Assembly: GCF_024298825.1 (NCBI RefSeq)
Contig: NZ_CP101153.1
Coordinates: 1,364,001-1,428,000 of the forward strand
DNA length: 64,000 nucleotides
Source: Haloglomus salinum
GTDB lineage: Archaea; Halobacteriota; Halobacteria; Halobacteriales; Haloarculaceae
Reading direction: 5' to 3'
A program made the position numbers and the translations under genes. Below, one piece after another: positions 29,175-36,973 of the stretch. The stretch's first letter is position 1; each line of letters starts with the position of its first letter. A model generated the notes under the pieces. It was given only the letters and a program-made list of their open reading frames with translations, had not been told where the DNA came from and ran no database searches.

Positions 29175-30041
29175 ATGTCCGTCCAGCAGTATCTGGAGCG
29201 CCTGTTCACCTGGGAGAGCCTGGAGAACACGACACGCGGGGTGGAGTTCGAACTGAAGAACCGGCTCATCGAGGGGGAGCTCCACGATATCGGTGGTGGG
29301 ACGCTGGACGACGAGACGGTCGACTCCGAGGACATCACGCTGGAACTGTCGAACGGGACGCTGGTCGAGGCGGCGACGGTCTCGGCCGACGAGCCCGTCC
29401 CGTTCGACCTCGCTGAGACGGTCCAGGTCATCATCGACGCCCCACGGCTCCGCAAGGGGACCCACACGCTGGGCATGGAGATGGACATCGAGGGGTTCGG
29501 GATGGTCGGGTTCGAGACGGACGACGACGTGACCGAGGCTGACCTGGTCGACGCCGACCCGGCCGACTACACGGTCGCGGAACTGGAGGACCTGGTCGCG
29601 GACCTCCGGGAGCCGGTCGAGCTGGGGCGGCTCCTCGAGCGCGAGCGCGACGGGAAGGCCCGCAAGACCGCCATCGAGGCCATCGAAGACCGCCTCGAGG
29701 TGGCCCGCGAGGAAGCCCCCGACGAGGAGAACATCGAGTACACCGCCGAGAACGCCGCCCCCGGCGGCAGTCTCGTCGAGGAACTGCTGGTCGACATCCT
29801 CGAGTCGCCCCAGCGCGTGACCGTCTACCTCACGGCCTTCCGCCAGCAGCCGACCACACCCGGAGCCATCGCCGGCCAGACGCTGTTCACCGAGGAGTCC
29901 GTCGAGGAGACGCTGGGGGACTTCGAGATGGAGGGCATCGCCGAGCGCAACGGTGACGGCGAGTACGAGGTGGTCTCCCCGGTGACGGTCATCCGCAAAC
30001 GGCAGAACCGGCTCTGGAACCTGCTGAGCCGGGGGCTCTGA
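29175..30041 (+). CDS. Conserved hypothetical protein (288 aa); a decayed relative lies at 34566-34862
   Basis: Soluble acidic protein. An N-terminal strand-rich part (about 1-120) contains EFELKNRLIEGELHDIGGG. A helical middle (about 130-185, ELGRLLERERDGKARKTAIE) and a winged-helix-like C-terminus (about 195-275, VYLTAFRQQPTTPGAIAGQ) follow. It ends in the basic peptide RKRQNRLWNLLSRGL. I do not recognise the family. The winged helix and basic tail suggest nucleic-acid or protein binding. A degenerate homologue of its last 100 codons lies 4.5 kb downstream. Confidence 0.7.
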   Translation: MSVQQYLERLFTWESLENTTRGVEFELKNRLIEGELHDIGGGTLDDETVDSEDITLELSNGTLVEAATVSADEPVPFDLAETVQVIIDAPRLRKGTHTLGMEMDIEGFGMVGFETDDDVTEADLVDADPADYTVAELEDLVADLREPVELGRLLERERDGKARKTAIEAIEDRLEVAREEAPDEENIEYTAENAAPGGSLVEELLVDILESPQRVTVYLTAFRQQPTTPGAIAGQTLFTEESVEETLGDFEMEGIAERNGDGEYEVVSPVTVIRKRQNRLWNLLSRGL

Positions 30042-30044
30042 GCT

Positions 30045-31595
30045 TCAGGAGACGGAGCCGGCCGACTCGGGGGCGTCGGACTCGTTGCTGCTGCCCCCGT
30101 CGGCGAGGGCGGCCTCCAGTTGCTCGATTATCTCCCCCGGGTTCGCCCCCTTCTCGATGTAGCCCACCGCGCCACGCTCCTGGGCCTTCTCCACCATCCG
30201 CCCCTTCTGGAAGCCGGAGTAGATGACCACGTCCGCGTCCGGCGCGACATCGCGGATCTCCGGGAGCGCCTCCAGGCCGTCCATCCGCGGCATCGACAGG
30301 TCGAGCAGGACCACGTCCGGCCGCGTCTCCGCGGCGACCTCGATGCCCTCCTCGCCGGTGCCGGCCTCGCCGACCACCTCGTACCGGCCGGTCTTCTCCA
30401 GCACCGTCCGGACGAGCGACCGGAGCCCCTCCACGTCGTCGACGAGGATGACCGAACAGGGCTCGGAGTCCGCGTCCGACCCCGACGCGAGCTCCGACTC
30501 GGTCGCCGCCTCCGGGCTCGATTCGGCCACCCGAGCCGGCTCAGCCACCACGCCCGGGGGAACGATGACGTGGAACGACGACCCCTCGCCGGGCTCGGTC
30601 TCGACCTCGATGCGACCGCCGAGGTCGTCGACGATACCCTGACAGAGCGCGAGACCCACACCGGACCCGTCGACCTCCCGGCCGGCGCTGCCCCGCTCGA
30701 ACAGGTCGAAGAGGGTGTCGACCTCGTCCGGGTCGATGCCGACGCCGTTGTCCGCGACGGTTATCCGGACGGAGTCGCCGTCCGCTCCTGCCTGCTCGGC
30801 GGAGACACGGACGCGGCGTGGGGGGTCGTCCTGGTACTTCAGTGCGTTCGAGACGAGGTTCTCGAACAGGCGGGCGAGCCGGGGACGCTGCCCCCGAATC
30901 GTCGGGAGCGACCCGACGTCTACCGACGCCGGCTCGTCCCAGCGGGCCGGGAGTGCGTCGACCACCTCGTCGAGGACGTCGTTCAGGTCGACCGCCTCGC
31001 GCTCCGGCCGTTCGGTTTCGTCGAGGCCGACCCGGGCGTACGTCAGGAGGTCCTCGAGGAGAGTCTCGGCCCGGTCGACGGCGCCGTGGGCCCCTTGCAG
31101 GTGGTCGAGAGCCTCCTCGTCGAGTTCGTCCTCGACTGCGGGCCGCAGCAGTTCCAGGTACCCCCGGATGACGCCCAGCGGCTGTTGCAGGTCGTGCGAG
31201 ACGCCGGAGACGAACTGCTGGAGGTCGTCCGAGTGGCCGGAGAGCCGGTCGACGGGGACCGCGAGAAGCAGGCTCTCATGGCCGGGGGTGTCGCCGAGCG
31301 CAACCGCCACCTCGACCGGGTCGCCATCGACGGGCGTCGCCCGGACGCGCTGGAACGACGCCGTATCGTCGCCGGTGGACGCAGCCTCGGGGCCCGCCGG
31401 TCGTTCGGCGGCGTCCGTGACGGGGTCGGGCAGCCCCGCGGGGAACAGCCTGGCCAGCGGTGTCCCCTGCAGGTCGTCACCGAGCAGGTCCCTCGCGGCG
31501 GCGTTGGCGGCGGTGACCTGCCCGTCCGCGGCGACGAGCGCGGCGGCCGGGAGCGACTCGAGTGGGACCGTCGGCGTCTCGTCGGAACGGGTCAC
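30045..31595 (-). CDS. Histidine kinase with C-terminal receiver domain
   Basis: A 516-residue cytoplasmic hybrid kinase. A PAS-like sensor (about 10-115) is followed by a dimerisation/phosphoacceptor helix with His134 in VSHDLQQPLG. The ATPase domain has an N-box (LVSNALKY), G1 (ADNGVGID) and G2 (GSGVGLAL). A receiver domain at about 385-500 has acidic residues (LVDDVEG), the phosphoacceptor Asp (LLDLSMP) and Lys (YIEKGA). Its ATG overlaps the CopC-CopD stop by four bases, so it is the last gene of a four-gene operon and probably receives the signals sensed upstream. No output DNA-binding domain is present. Confidence 0.92.
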   Translation of the reverse strand: MTRSDETPTVPLESLPAAALVAADGQVTAANAAARDLLGDDLQGTPLARLFPAGLPDPVTDAAERPAGPEAASTGDDTASFQRVRATPVDGDPVEVAVALGDTPGHESLLLAVPVDRLSGHSDDLQQFVSGVSHDLQQPLGVIRGYLELLRPAVEDELDEEALDHLQGAHGAVDRAETLLEDLLTYARVGLDETERPEREAVDLNDVLDEVVDALPARWDEPASVDVGSLPTIRGQRPRLARLFENLVSNALKYQDDPPRRVRVSAEQAGADGDSVRITVADNGVGIDPDEVDTLFDLFERGSAGREVDGSGVGLALCQGIVDDLGGRIEVETEPGEGSSFHVIVPPGVVAEPARVAESSPEAATESELASGSDADSEPCSVILVDDVEGLRSLVRTVLEKTGRYEVVGEAGTGEEGIEVAAETRPDVVLLDLSMPRMDGLEALPEIRDVAPDADVVIYSGFQKGRMVEKAQERGAVGYIEKGANPGEIIEQLEAALADGGSSNESDAPESAGSVS

Positions 31596-33262
31596 GGCTC
31601 CGTCACCTCCGGGGCAGGGTCCAGCCGGACCGTCCAGTCGGCGCTCGCGGCGCCGTGTGGCCCGTCGAGGCTAGCTTCGAGTTCCCACTCCCCGGGGCGG
31701 TCGAGGACATCGTCCGGGAGCCGCCACGCGCCGCCATCCCGGACCAGCGCGACCGAGTGGGGCGCCACCGACCCCGGCGGGTCGACAACCACCTCGGGTG
31801 TCGGCAGCGAGATGCCGGGGAGCGAGCGGCTGTCGACGCGCAACCGGACGGGCGCGTCAGCGTCGGGACGGGGCGGGTCGGGCGTCACCAGCGTGAACCG
31901 GTACTCGCCGCGCTCGACCTGCTGCCAGCGGCCCCGGTCGAGGTCGGCGTCGGCCACGTCGTGGGCGGGCCGCGGGTGGGCCGCGAGATGCGCCGCCAGC
32001 AGGAGCATCGCCGCGAGTGCCAGCGCCTCCATCGGGACCGACCGCCGGAGTCGGTCACCCCGGCCCGACGGCAGCACGCGGTAGCGGTGGTACACGGCGA
32101 AGGCCAGCGGGACGACGATGAGCCCCGCCTTCAGCAGGATGAGCCCGCCGTACCGGGTCGTCAGCAGGTCGCTCCACCGGAGCAGGTGCGCGTCGGCGTA
32201 GACGACACCGGTGACAGCCAGTGCGACGACGGCCCCGAGGCCCCACGGCGAGAACCGACGGGCCGCGGCCAGCGCGTCCGTCCGTGAGGCCCGGAGCGCC
32301 GTCAGGCTGACACCGACCAGCCCGCCGAGCCAGACCGCCGCCGCGGACGTGTGAACGAGTCCGACGAGCATGACCCAGGCCCCCTCGATACCCATCGCGC
32401 TCGCGCCCGCAAGCCCGTGGCTGGCGAACGAATCCGCCAGCAGGCCGCCGAGCGCCAGCGCCCCCGCACCGGCGAAGGCGCCGCCGTGGAAGTCACCCCC
32501 GAGTCCGGGGCGGCGTCGGGCCCAGGGTCGCCAGCGAGCGACGACCGAAGCAGCGAGCGCGGCGACGAAGAGCCCGACACCAGCCACCCGGACGGCGCCG
32601 CCAGTCGTGCCGACGGCGGTTCCGAGGTCGCCGTGGCGATAGGCGAGCGCCGCGACCACGCCCAGCCCGCCGGCGACGGCGAGACCGGCCGTTCCGACCA
32701 CGGCGGAGCGCCAGGCCCGGGGGACCGTCGGCTCGACGACGGTGCCGACGAACGCCAGCCCCACGGTCACCAGCGCACCGACGAGCAGCGCCCAGCCCGC
32801 CAGCGTCTCCGCGAACAGCGCCACGGCACCGCCCGGAACCGTATCCCACGAGGGCGCCGCGCCGTCCGAAGCGCCGGCGTCGTCGCCGGCAGCACCGGCG
32901 CCACCATCCGACCCGACGGTGAACGCGAGCGTCCCGGTCGCGGGGTGGCCGTCCGTGCTCGTCACGCGCCACCGCAACTCGTACGCCCCGGGCGACAGCG
33001 ACGCGGTCGTCACCCGGACCGTCCGGGCGTCGCCGGTGGTCTCGACCGACTCGACGAGGTCGGGTCCCTCACCGCCGGTCACCGTGACCTCGAGCGTCGC
33101 GGCGTCGATGGACTCGCCGAACTCCAGCATGACGACGCTGGCCCCCTCGGGGAGTGACTCGCCCGGTGCCGGGTCGCTGGAGGCGAGGAACGGGTGTGCG
33201 GCGACAGGAGTCGCGAGGAGGGCCAGCACCAGCCCCGCCAGCACCACCGTCGCGACTCTCAC
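31592..33262 (-). CDS. CopC-CopD fusion, copper resistance/uptake membrane protein
   Basis: A 556-residue fusion. A signal peptide (1-22) is cleaved before His23, giving the CopC-type N-terminus HPFLASSDPAPGESL. The CopC domain covers about 23-120, then a Gly/Ala/Asp linker. A CopD domain with about eight membrane helices follows (150-420, including SFASHGLAGASAMGIEGAWV, HTSAAAVWLGGL and YADAHLL), then a C-terminal extracytoplasmic beta-rich domain (about 440-550). It likely binds copper outside and moves it across the membrane. It is translationally coupled to the genes on both sides by four-base overlaps. Confidence 0.9.
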   Translation of the reverse strand: MRVATVVLAGLVLALLATPVAAHPFLASSDPAPGESLPEGASVVMLEFGESIDAATLEVTVTGGEGPDLVESVETTGDARTVRVTTASLSPGAYELRWRVTSTDGHPATGTLAFTVGSDGGAGAAGDDAGASDGAAPSWDTVPGGAVALFAETLAGWALLVGALVTVGLAFVGTVVEPTVPRAWRSAVVGTAGLAVAGGLGVVAALAYRHGDLGTAVGTTGGAVRVAGVGLFVAALAASVVARWRPWARRRPGLGGDFHGGAFAGAGALALGGLLADSFASHGLAGASAMGIEGAWVMLVGLVHTSAAAVWLGGLVGVSLTALRASRTDALAAARRFSPWGLGAVVALAVTGVVYADAHLLRWSDLLTTRYGGLILLKAGLIVVPLAFAVYHRYRVLPSGRGDRLRRSVPMEALALAAMLLLAAHLAAHPRPAHDVADADLDRGRWQQVERGEYRFTLVTPDPPRPDADAPVRLRVDSRSLPGISLPTPEVVVDPPGSVAPHSVALVRDGGAWRLPDDVLDRPGEWELEASLDGPHGAASADWTVRLDPAPEVTEP

Positions 33263-33882
33263 GACGACCCCCCATCGTCGGTGATATCGGAGAGGTCGGC
33301 GGCGTCCGGTCGGTGTATCTCACCCGCCTCGAAGGCCAGTTCCGAGCCCTCCTCGCCGAGTATCTCCGTGATGAGGTGTTTACTGTCGTCGAGGGTCTCG
33401 TCGACGAGTTCGAGCGCCAGTTCGCGGTCGCCCTGGTCGAGCGCGAGCTTCGCCTGCGAGAGGTTCTGGACGACGCTGTCGTTGATGTCCAGCGCCCGCT
33501 CCCGGCGCTCGCGCATGTCGTCGAACAGCGCGGACCCGCGCCAGATGAGTTTGAACCGGTTCCGCAACGAGAGATACCACACCGCCACGCCCCCCGCGAA
33601 CACGTTGACCACGACGAGCCGGGGGTCGCCGAACACGACGCGCGCGGCCGAGCCGAGCGTGAGGTCCGTCCCGGTCACGGGGAGGAGCGCGTGCATCGTG
33701 TGCATCCCGTGGCCGGCCGCACAGGTGGCGAAGATGAGCGCGGTCGCCATCCCGAGATGGTTGGTGGCCCACTGACGACCCTCCAGCAGCCCGCGCAACA
33801 GCGTGGCCGCGATGCCGACGTAGCTCATCCACATGAGCGTCGTCGCCACCACGCCGACGACCCACAGGTCGACCCCGAACAT
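33259..33882 (-). CDS. Membrane sensor-like protein with kinase-type dimerisation helix, no ATPase domain (copy 2)
   Basis: 207 residues. About four membrane segments span the first 115 residues. A helical segment follows that resembles the phosphoacceptor helix of NarL-partner (HisKA_3-type) kinases: ALDINDSVVQNLSQAKLALD. The position of the acceptor His is Asn (IND), and no ATPase domain follows. It overlaps copCD by four bases and lies one base from its paralogue upstream. It may be a dimerising signal-transducer subunit rather than a kinase. Similarity to histidine kinases is limited to this helix. Confidence 0.7.
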   Translation of the reverse strand: MFGVDLWVVGVVATTLMWMSYVGIAATLLRGLLEGRQWATNHLGMATALIFATCAAGHGMHTMHALLPVTGTDLTLGSAARVVFGDPRLVVVNVFAGGVAVWYLSLRNRFKLIWRGSALFDDMRERRERALDINDSVVQNLSQAKLALDQGDRELALELVDETLDDSKHLITEILGEEGSELAFEAGEIHRPDAADLSDITDDGGSS

Positions 33883-33883
33883 C

Positions 33884-34465
33884 TCAGTCGTCCTCCCGGC
33901 GGAGCGTTCCCTTGGTCCCCTCCTCGTCGATGAGCTCGGTTATCATCGTCTTGGCCTCCTCGAGGGTCTCCTCCAGTGCCTCCTCCCCGAGTTCGTCCTG
34001 TTCGGCCTCCAGCGCGAGTTTGGTCCGCGAGAGCCCCTGGACGATGTTGTCGTGCACCGCCAGCGCCTGCCGGTTCCGGCTCCGGAGGTCCTCGAACAGC
34101 GAGGCTCCCCGCGCGAGCGTCGGATACCGCCGGCGCATCGTCCAGTACCAGAGGCCCGCGAACGCCGTCAGGAGATCCAGCACCACCATGTGCGCCCAGT
34201 TGTACTCGACGTGCGAGGCCAGCCCCGGCAGCCCGCCCACGCCCAGCACCGGTGCCAGCAGCTGCACCGTCCGGACGCCGTGGCTCCCCGCACAGGTGAG
34301 GAAGATGAGCATCGTCGCGACACCGAGCGGGTTCCCCGACCACTGCCCGGTTCGCGTCAGGTCGAGTACCAGCCGGATCGCGATCGCGGCGAACGACACC
34401 GTGATGACGGCACTCGCGACGAGGCCGGCCTGCCAGAGGTCAGGAAGCACGGCAGCCACCCCCAC
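33884..34465 (-). CDS. Membrane sensor-like protein with kinase-type dimerisation helix, no ATPase domain (copy 1)
   Basis: 193 residues, paralogue of the next gene. It has four membrane segments and then ALAVHDNIVQGLSRTKLALE, where the acceptor His (VHD) is kept. The C-terminus ends soon after in acidic residues, again without an ATPase domain. It is the first gene of the operon that continues with copy 2, CopC-CopD and the kinase-receiver hybrid. Conserved histidines in the membrane part (CAGSHGVRTV, matching CAAGHGMHTM in copy 2) could bind a metal or haem. Confidence 0.7.
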   Translation of the reverse strand: MGVAAVLPDLWQAGLVASAVITVSFAAIAIRLVLDLTRTGQWSGNPLGVATMLIFLTCAGSHGVRTVQLLAPVLGVGGLPGLASHVEYNWAHMVVLDLLTAFAGLWYWTMRRRYPTLARGASLFEDLRSRNRQALAVHDNIVQGLSRTKLALEAEQDELGEEALEETLEEAKTMITELIDEEGTKGTLRREDD

Positions 34466-34565: not shown

Positions 34566-34862
34566 GGTTATCGAAGGTGAAGGTTGGGCGAGGGCAGCGG
34601 TCGTCTCGCGGAGGGACTCCGGGCGGGTGTCTTCGAGTCAGCACAGTGTGCTGATGTCTCCTCACGGTGTTCCGCCGGCAGCCGACCACGCCGGAAGCAA
34701 TTGCGAGTCAGATGCTGGTTACCGAGGGGTGGTCTGGGGGTTCGAGATGGGAGAGTCGCCGAGTGCGACGAAGAGGAGCGACGGTGTGAGGGAGTCTCGC
34801 CGGTGACGGTGAGTCGGAAGCGGCAAAATCGGGTGTGGAATATTCTGAGTCGGGGGCTTTGA
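34566..34862 (+). pseudogene. Decayed C-terminal remnant of a paralogue of the 29175-30041 gene
   Basis: Aligns with the last 100 codons or so of that gene across its length, with frameshifts and stops. Recognisable blocks are TTCGAGTCAGCACAG, CAGCCGACCACGCC, GGTTCGAGATGG and a final in-frame stretch. That final stretch encodes SPVTVSRKRQNRVWNILSRGL, 18 of 21 identical to the intact gene, ending at an equivalent TGA. Most differences in it are synonymous, so the two copies diverged as working genes before this one decayed. No N-terminal part is found upstream. Confidence 0.75.
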
Positions 34863-35006
34863 GTAAATGGTGCAGTTCTCTTGAGGGGCCATATAGCTTC
34901 AGTACGAGATTTGATGAGAGTGATATTGATTGCAAAATCAACCAAGATATAAGAGATATGGCGCGCTATGTCCAGAATCGTGCTAGTTTTGAACGTATTA
35001 ATTGCC
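34863..35006. other. AT-rich strip at the left edge of the low-GC island
   Basis: Abrupt change from GC-rich sequence to roughly balanced or AT-rich composition directly after the pseudogene stop. No gene or repeat is recognised. Confidence 0.5.
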
Positions 35007-36860
35007 TTATGAGCCCGTATCCTTTTCAGGGCTAGGACCAATAAAGAATGTTTGCCGTTCGCCATCTAGTATAAAGGAGACGACAAAGAAGTCGCCTTTT
35101 TCAACTTCTACAGGATTCCCATTTTTATCTTGGAACTTAAACCTGATTACACCCTCAGAATCAGAACTGTCACCATCATTATCGTTCGGAACAGTCAATC
35201 CCATAGAACCGAAATCGTTTGTCAGTTCATATGGATTGTCGCTCGCTCCGACGACTGTGACCTGCCCGAAGTTTCCTTGTGCACTGGCGCTTTGTCTGTC
35301 GGGTTTATAGAATACGTAACGGAATTCGTCTATTTCAACATCATTCCCCGACACACTCTCAAATTTCACGTCAACTGCGCATACGGTCTTCCCACACTCG
35401 TTAGCTTTCTTGGCATTTTTTATCTTCGCAGACGTTACCTTCAGCGTATTTGGATTATTTAGCAACGGCTTTGTCTGACTAATTCGCGATGGGTTGATTA
35501 CTTCCATAGAAACATCCGCATCCTCGGCCCCTCCACTTCCAAATGAACCATCGAACTTCGCCTCGACATCTACGCCGACGGGATTGGAGCTAGTAGATCC
35601 GGGAGCGACGTAGATTAATCTAATCTTCCCGTCGGGCCCCACGGGGATGTTGTCGTTCGGCTGGCCAGTGATATCGACACCCTCATGCATCAGTTTCTGT
35701 CCGGAAGGACCTCCGACAAGTCGAACGTCGACCTCGGCGTCCCCACCCGGGTTGTTGTACTTGTTACGGACCTGAAAGACGATTTCCTGTCGCCCGTTGA
35801 GCGAGACATCGGTACCGTCACCTTTCAGGTCGGTAATGTACTCGGAATCCGGTGTGGTAATTCCAGACCCAACGCCAACCTTGGCCATCTTGAGGTTGTA
35901 GGTGACCGGGTTCCCGTTCTGGTTGTCCTCTTGGAAGGTCAGCGTGAGTTCGTGAGGTGTGACCGTGTCGTCGTAGCTGCAGCTCGTGATGAAACGATCA
36001 TTGGTCGGATCGGCTCCCGAAATCACATTCGGGCCAGAGCCATCACACACGTCGCCGGCCTCTGGTCCGGCCTGTCCATCGTCCGTATCGTCGATCTCCT
36101 CGGAAAGTAGCTCTTGCACCCAGACCTCCTCTGGGAGGTCCGTCGGAATAGTTACTTTCACCGGGCCGCCGTCATCTTCCACCGTGATTGTCTCGGTCGC
36201 AGCACTCACCGATGTCACGTCAACTGAGGCCGCATCCGACTGTGACGTGGACTTATCTCCATCTAATGCAGTAAAGTAGATTTGACGACCGTTAACGATA
36301 TCTTGGTCGCTTTGGACGATATCCACCCCATCAGAGAACCTATGATAGAGAACAGAGTTTTGATAGACTGTCTCCGGGGCGTTCTCGTAGTAGTTGTAAC
36401 TCGGATTATAGATCAGTTGTTTCGAAGGTGCATTGACAGGGTCGCCAGTCCAAAAATCGCTTACTTCCTCGTCAGTCGCTTCCGCATTCTCTATTGTTAG
36501 TTGGTCGCTCCCCTCTGTTCGTATCGTTCCGGCCCCTTCGCCTGGATTCAACAGTAACAGTCTGGTTGGATAATCGACTCCCAAATCAATCGACTCCGAC
36601 TGCGAGGCACCGACAGCAGCCGACCGCTGGATGGCCCCCCGGATGTCACTCATACTCTGCTGTGCTTGCTCATTGTGACTCGCCTCCAACTCCTCGTTGC
36701 TCTGTGGAACAAGCACGACCTGTGCCGCAGCTAACGCTGCGATGATGAAGGCAAAAATCAACACAGCACCGATGACCTGAGACTGTGCCCTCCCGCCCCG
36801 AGCAAATCCGCGCGGCTTGGCGAGAAGCCGCCCGATTGTTACTTCGTACCAACCCCCCAT
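35007..36860 (-). CDS. Type IV pilin-like surface protein
   Basis: About 617 residues from the ATG of MGGWYEVT. Near residue 25 is a pilin/archaellin-type N-terminus: GGRAQSQVIGAVLIFAFIIA, a hydrophobic helix that in haloarchaeal pilins follows a PibD cleavage site. The segment after it (SHNEQAQQSMSDIRGAIQRS) is typical of large haloarchaeal pilin-like proteins. The rest is strand-rich with many Asn, Thr and Asp, four cysteines (DVCDGSG, TSCSYDD, NECGKTVCAVD) and repeated immunoglobulin-like patterns. Codon use is markedly less GC-rich than in flanking genes, pointing to transfer or a hypervariable surface locus. A longer start at 36902 is possible. Confidence 0.75.
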   Translation of the reverse strand: MGGWYEVTIGRLLAKPRGFARGGRAQSQVIGAVLIFAFIIAALAAAQVVLVPQSNEELEASHNEQAQQSMSDIRGAIQRSAAVGASQSESIDLGVDYPTRLLLLNPGEGAGTIRTEGSDQLTIENAEATDEEVSDFWTGDPVNAPSKQLIYNPSYNYYENAPETVYQNSVLYHRFSDGVDIVQSDQDIVNGRQIYFTALDGDKSTSQSDAASVDVTSVSAATETITVEDDGGPVKVTIPTDLPEEVWVQELLSEEIDDTDDGQAGPEAGDVCDGSGPNVISGADPTNDRFITSCSYDDTVTPHELTLTFQEDNQNGNPVTYNLKMAKVGVGSGITTPDSEYITDLKGDGTDVSLNGRQEIVFQVRNKYNNPGGDAEVDVRLVGGPSGQKLMHEGVDITGQPNDNIPVGPDGKIRLIYVAPGSTSSNPVGVDVEAKFDGSFGSGGAEDADVSMEVINPSRISQTKPLLNNPNTLKVTSAKIKNAKKANECGKTVCAVDVKFESVSGNDVEIDEFRYVFYKPDRQSASAQGNFGQVTVVGASDNPYELTNDFGSMGLTVPNDNDGDSSDSEGVIRFKFQDKNGNPVEVEKGDFFVVSFILDGERQTFFIGPSPEKDTGS

Positions 36861-36973
36861 ACCATACTGTCGCGAGGTAAGGAAACGTAAATGTTCGGCC
36901 AAGGAAGGTGTCTGCGAAACCTGCCCGGTGAAACGCCTCAGAAGGCTCTAACACATGACGAAAGGTGAAGAAG

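Follow-up and report, generated by a model that had tools for sequence, protein, structure and literature searches.

A pair of adjacent minus-strand genes in Haloglomus salinum, here called A and B, encodes two membrane paralogues. A new finding is the likeness of their membrane part to the domain that binds Cu(I) and ethylene in ethylene receptors. The genes lie in the window, the whole stretch of 64,000 nucleotides (nt) analysed here (contig NZ_CP101153.1, positions 1,364,001 to 1,428,000), and are followed by genes for a CopC-CopD fusion and a hybrid kinase, together forming a four-gene cassette. We read A and B as putative membrane sensor subunits of a split copper two-component system that dock on a separate kinase, and put the probability of this reading at roughly 45%. 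The original prediction, made from the sequence of the window, had described tandem membrane sensors carrying Cys/His motifs and dimerisation helices without an ATPase domain, ahead of a copper protein and a kinase. That anatomy was borne out. The coding features, with lengths in amino acids (aa), are as follows.

33884..34465, minus strand: gene A, 193 aa; a hydrophobic part of probably three helices that includes CAGSHG, followed by a hairpin of two helices carrying a HisKA_3-like H-box (His138)
34277..34294, minus strand: codons for CAGSHG in A; its Cys58 and His62 align with ETR1 Cys65/His69
33259..33882, minus strand: gene B, paralogue of A with 207 aa; the second membrane helix carries CAAGHGMHTMH, and Asn134 takes the place of the acceptor His
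33706..33723, minus strand: codons for CAAGHG in B; its Cys54 and His58 align with ETR1 Cys65/His69
31592..33262, minus strand: CopC-CopD fusion, 556 aa; Pfam CopC and CopD
30045..31595, minus strand: hybrid kinase, 516 aa; weak PAS, HisKA, HATPase and a C-terminal receiver

Membrane part of A and B

Proteins A and B are 39-41% identical; the single comparison that gave 39% covered 189 aligned residues (E 1e-46). Both place a Cys-x-x-x-His-Gly motif within the second hydrophobic helix, CAGSHG at residues 58-63 of A and CAAGHG at residues 54-59 of B. In the Haloglomus halophilum orthologue of A the motif reads CAASHG. The motif of B runs on as M-H-x-M-H, so that His or Met stands at positions 58, 60, 61, 63 and 64. 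AlphaFold models of the two proteins, which are of low confidence (mean predicted local distance difference test scores of 51 for A and 47 for B), contain three helices and a two-helix hairpin. The modelled helices of A, equally of low confidence, span residues 3-38, 46-70 and 90-113, and a hydropathy scan gives four 19-residue peaks. Because of the poor model quality, an argument from the fold was dropped.

When searched against Pfam, the ethylene-receptor copper domain ETR1_N (PF25487) was the top match for B and its H. halophilum orthologue (E 0.025 each) and for the H. halophilum orthologue of A (0.0066). For A itself (E 0.051) it came second, behind HisKA_3 (0.0075). All of these alignments fall within positions 3-70 of the 97 in the family. 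Searching the whole H. salinum genome with ETR1_N returned B first (E 0.0265, 16.7 bits) and A second (0.086, 15.1 bits), followed by an unrelated frame at E 0.32. We also built an ethylene-binding domain (EBD) profile from nine bacterial domains encoded on plasmids together with ETR1; the nine were drawn from 17 plasmid records, six from Azospirillum, one from Acaryochloris and one from Novosphingobium having been dropped beforehand. The EBD profile aligned with the whole A/B profile across 125 columns at a score of 29.9 (probability 30%; E 0.00056, as one comparison). With the membrane part only the score was 26.7, a value that none of 200 local column shuffles reached (mean 12.9, standard deviation 3.1). 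Control comparisons gave 11.0 for the reversed profile, 13.6 for DUF7471, 11.1 for an SdhC-like family and 10.7 for the CopC-CopD fusion. The A1 matches, to apparent membrane subunits of succinate dehydrogenase, were rejected as chance.

In the hidden Markov model (HMM) alignment, the motif Cys and His of both proteins fall on Cys65 and His69 of ETR1, and helices 1 and 2 align without gaps. The seven ethylene-binding residues are D25, Y32, I35, P36, I62, C65 and H69, of which the same alignment finds four kept in B (Y32, I35, C65 and H69) and three in A (I35, C65 and H69, with Phe at Y32); Ala takes the place of Pro36 in both. The available text of two papers describes ethylene binding as needing seven residues (PMC6682694, PMC11819568), and that of another gives Asp25, Cys65 and His69 as the copper site of ETR1 (PMC12643061). 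The corresponding Asp and Cys of AzoEtr1, a bacterial receptor, are described as mutated to give predicted non-binders (PMC11819568, in the text available). From these comparisons the likeness of the A/B membrane part to the ethylene-receptor domain is probably a real resemblance, short of proof. Copper binding by A and B is plausible and ethylene binding unlikely.

Plant ETR1 and bacterial receptors such as AzoEtr1 (PMC11819568) have an N-terminal three-helix membrane domain followed by kinase-type helices, an arrangement predicted at low confidence for A and B too, and the helix-2 Cys-x-x-x-His stands in the same register. However, A and B come from an archaeal host, score below the family cut-off, occur as a tandem pair and lack a GAF, PAS, ATPase or receiver domain in the same protein.

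Kinase-like helices, copper protein and hybrid kinase

Behind the membrane part, each protein has an H-box-like helix (RNRQALAVHDNIVQGLSRTKLALE in A, RRERALDINDSVVQNLSQAKLALD in B) and then a second helix. The H-box of A, ALAVHDNIVQGL, holds the putative acceptor His138, whereas that of B, ALDINDSVVQNL, has Asn134 in its place, and both are identical in the two species. The predicted HisKA_3-like helix stays below threshold in Pfam, yet a search of the H. salinum genome with HisKA_3 gave A as its top match (E 0.0084; next 0.79). A profile of the A and B helices aligns in register with NarX, NarQ and UhpB over 23 columns centred on the H-box, the comparison profile consisting of these three E. 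coli kinases only. Its score exceeded all 300 block-shuffled controls (0/150 in blocks of four and 0/150 in blocks of seven as high). For A alone the corresponding counts were 1/150 and 4/150, and for B alone 0 and 0. None of 194 sampled Halobacteria genomes has a HisKA_3 match at E<=1e-6 or above the cut-off. As in NarX, NarQ and UhpB, a pattern A-x-x-x-HD-x-(I/V/L)-x-Q-x-(L/I) opens a helical hairpin; unlike those kinases, A and B score below the cut-off, B has Asn for His, and neither has an ATPase domain (none in Pfam at E<=1).

The copper protein matches CopC (2.3e-19, 70.6 bits, cut-off 23.3) and CopD (4.3e-17, 62.8 bits, cut-off 32.1) on a single chain. An AHP motif sits behind a signal-like N-terminus and DGH at residues 104-106, presumably the CopC copper-brace pattern. 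A role in copper import is described for YcnJ, a fused CopC-CopD homologue of Bacillus subtilis, whose Cu2+-binding CopC domain and a CopD histidine are said to be required for growth under copper limitation (PMC13344008, in the text available). The window fusion likewise has CopC then CopD on one chain with the brace-like AHP and DGH, but differs in that no YtkA match was found by Pfam and in its neighbours, which are putative membrane sensors and a kinase in place of YcnK and YcnI.

The hybrid kinase has HisKA (6.8e-15), HATPase (6.7e-27) and REC (3.3e-24) domains above their cut-offs and a weak PAS, with SHD at 133 in HisKA and DLSM at 432 in the C-terminal receiver. No DNA-binding output domain was found in it or elsewhere in the cassette.

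Outside the cassette, the same genome carries a second, shorter CopD match above the cut-off (L108, G000:C1:2843450-2843746). Small membrane proteins of the DUF7471 kind lie near CopC-CopD in 14 of 20 other haloarchaeal CopD regions (e.g. L079:7344-7703); they carry HH-x-x-EH and may be copper-related (one checked by Pfam). Several other haloarchaea have a gene of about 420 aa directly before CopC-CopD (e.g. L079:3288-4559), a different partner from that in Haloglomus, with a weak DUF6923 repeat in the one checked.

The cassette, its distribution and its probable insertion site

On the minus strand the gene order is A, B, CopC-CopD, hybrid kinase. A 1-nt gap separates A from B, and 4-nt overlaps join B to the CopC-CopD gene and the latter to the kinase gene. 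H. halophilum has the same four genes in identical order with identical joints, and the orthologues in its strain ZY41 are 98% (B) and 94% (A) identical. The start common to H. halophilum is an alternative GTG of gene A at 34450, which gives a protein of 188 aa. Between the two species the ratio of nonsynonymous to synonymous substitution rates (dN/dS), a single simple pairwise estimate per gene from few changes, was 0.25 for A, 0.14 for B, 0.24 for the CopC-CopD fusion and 0.40 for the kinase, as against 3.1 for a long antisense open reading frame (ORF) over A and B. All four frames are under purifying selection and the antisense ORF is not, so the four look like real genes.

The host genome is haloarchaeal and 4.19 Mb in size. 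Protein A matched one of 292 Halobacteria genomes, its own, and two of four Haloglomus genomes; A, B and the CopC-CopD fusion are each present in the same two. At E<=1e-20 the fusion was found in 2/146 family genomes. Searching the genome_contigs set with B returned H. halophilum only, while plasmids gave no match to A or B and IMG/VR none to A. An A/B profile found nothing convincing in 391 genomes of the class, with 75 of them giving matches at E<=1 and a best value outside the H. salinum genome of 0.0087. In 196 genomes of the phylum only H. salinum and G571 reached E<=0.01. The G571 match (E 0.0065) is confined to the helix, lies in a frame that has PAS-like stretches and was not convincing. 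The genome sets of these searches overlap. Near 20 CopD matches no relative of A or B was found among six-frame ORFs of at least 60 aa (best E 0.57); a CopD match was present in 194 of 242 genomes, and the regions come from 19 of these with higher scores. The expectation that the four-gene order would recur is weakly borne out, as within the sampled Halobacteria it was found in one other Haloglomus species only.

The features bordering the cassette are the following.

29175..30041, plus strand: convergent neighbour gene encoding 288 aa; N-terminus like HMG-CoA_red_N, and at 208-268 a weak match to the HVO_A0261_N winged helix
about 29780-30042: copy 1 of the bracketing repeat, the 3' end of the convergent neighbour gene
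34610..34863, plus strand: copy 2, decayed, of the 3' end of that gene; read as its displaced original end and bordering the cassette on the right

A decayed copy of the final ~260 nt of the convergent gene thus stands on the far side of the four genes, and H. halophilum has this repeat as well. In G293, a Haloglomus genome without A and B, a pilin-like gene follows the convergent gene within about 140 nt, which corresponds to an empty site, whereas in the window the pilin-like gene lies beyond the repeat. The left-hand repeat copies group with the end of the gene in G294 (support 0.94-0.98) and the right-hand copies with that in G293, the support for the right-hand pair being only 0.47. A simple reading of this grouping is that the four genes arrived jointly with a foreign 3' end which displaced the original one; a local duplication is another possible origin of the repeat. 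The arrangement suggests that the 3' end of the convergent gene served for integration or for recombination. A joint arrival favours the view that the four genes work as a unit, without proving it.

The pilin-like gene adjoining the cassette (35007-36902; weak DUF7289 and Pilin_N) has a G+C content of 0.52, compared with 0.69 for the window. At its position, H. halophilum and G293 have very different predicted proteins of 576 and 515 aa.

A proposed split copper sensor and its alternatives

Because neither A nor B has an ATPase domain, they would act through a separate kinase. Their predicted three-helix domain would share ancestry with the Cu(I)-binding domain of ethylene receptors or have converged on it, and may bind copper through the helix-2 Cys-x-x-x-His pair, to which B may add the MHxMH cluster. 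A ligand other than ethylene is suggested by the replacement of Asp25 and Pro36. The copper domain would feed the two-helix hairpin, which resembles a dimerisation and histidine phosphotransfer (DHp) domain and through which A and B may homo- or heterodimerise. The pair may then dock on the soluble PAS-HisKA-HATPase-REC kinase encoded directly downstream and alter its activity or, for A only, phosphate may be received or returned at His138. Such a unit could tune or monitor the CopC-CopD copper protein of the same cluster. Of the split copper or redox system originally proposed, the split architecture, kinase-like helices and copper context stood; a generic redox signal is less favoured than copper, since the membrane part is most like the copper-binding domain of ethylene receptors.

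Several results weigh against a split copper sensor. The ETR1_N scores (14.3-17.1 bits with hmmscan) are all under the curated cut-off of 27 bits, and unrelated frames in 4/292 other haloarchaeal genomes, which we rejected as chance matches, score 18-20 bits and so above A and B. In the EBD comparison A alone and B alone are weaker, their scores being reached by 1/150 and 2/150 shuffles. When one-sequence profiles were compared, B ranked below four unrelated membrane ORFs; A was absent from this ranking because the hydropathy filter, set at two or more helices, had removed it. Of the three copper residues, Asp25 is lost (Ser in A, Thr in B), and copper sensing without ethylene binding is therefore predicted. 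A fold search with the AlphaFold models, both poor, was empty at E<=0.001, and a sequence search of solved structures gave no match for A or B. The HisKA_3 (PF07730) match of A is below threshold (E 0.0075, 17.2 bits, cut-off 24) and B has none in Pfam at E<=1, while the dimerisation domain of the kinase itself is HisKA (PF00512), another subfamily than the HisKA_3-like helices of A and B. The copper role and the contact with the partner rest on gene neighbourhood.

Given this difference of subfamily, a reading in which the kinase phosphorylates A in trans calls for caution; such a transfer may occur but should not be assumed, and allosteric docking is equally likely. The mechanism we favour is allosteric control of the kinase by A and B through the DHp-like hairpin, with copper sensing. 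A more specific form of it can be held only tentatively, in which an archaeal ethylene-receptor copper domain has been uncoupled from its kinase and the four-gene cassette encodes tandem heterodimeric sensors, for copper and not ethylene, with control over a soluble hybrid kinase that is a protein of its own.

A non-sensor role is unlikely but deserves weight. Here A and B would be copper-handling membrane proteins passing Cu(I) to or from CopC-CopD, their C-terminal helices would merely dimerise, and the kinase would be a separate regulator. The membrane Cys and His (in B also Met and His) beside CopC-CopD would fit this, as would the missing ATPase domains, the lack of an acceptor His in B and the 4-nt overlap of B with the CopC-CopD gene. 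However, a plain dimer helix would need neither a kinase H-box pattern beyond shuffles nor the top HisKA_3 match of the genome, and the hybrid kinase lies inside the same bracketed cassette.

We consider it improbable that the cassette runs a phosphorelay in which the kinase receiver passes phosphate to His138 of A, acting as a membrane-anchored hairpin of the histidine phosphotransfer type with B (Asn) as its inert partner. His in A and Asn in B are kept in both species, the C-terminal receiver of the kinase has no output domain attached, and the models, at low confidence, place a two-helix hairpin after the membrane part; but the cassette holds no second receiver protein for onward transfer, and the HisKA_3 resemblance is short at 23 columns. 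That the ethylene-receptor likeness is chance, produced by hydrophobic helices with Cys-x-x-x-His in lineage-specific proteins of no known fold or signal, would suit the sub-threshold scores, the low-confidence models and the absence of relatives found beyond Haloglomus, but is likewise improbable given a profile score above 200/200 local shuffles and all control families, B and A as the first and second ETR1_N matches in the genome, and functional residues in register over helices 1 and 2 without gaps.

The ethylene-receptor domain has been reported in bacteria and, among eukaryotes, in plants, algae and some others. A literature search for the ethylene-binding domain with archaea or haloarchaea returned no title or abstract opening on archaeal receptors, and a 2019 review of archaeal kinases, in the text available, names other sensor domains for Archaea (PMC6944256). 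On present evidence, within the limits of a tiny family and sub-threshold scores, the A/B system belongs with ethylene-receptor-like sensing and two-component signalling. A parallel for DHp helices of one protein acting on another kinase is RetS, which reportedly acts on GacS; RetS has its own ATPase domain, whereas A and B have none. The pair would offer a small test case of how DHp helices without an ATPase domain act on another kinase, and if the split copper sensor is true, sensor and catalysis would be separable for experiments. A copper-only, kinase-free form of the domain beside a copper protein would, if true, suggest a route from copper sensor to gas receptor.

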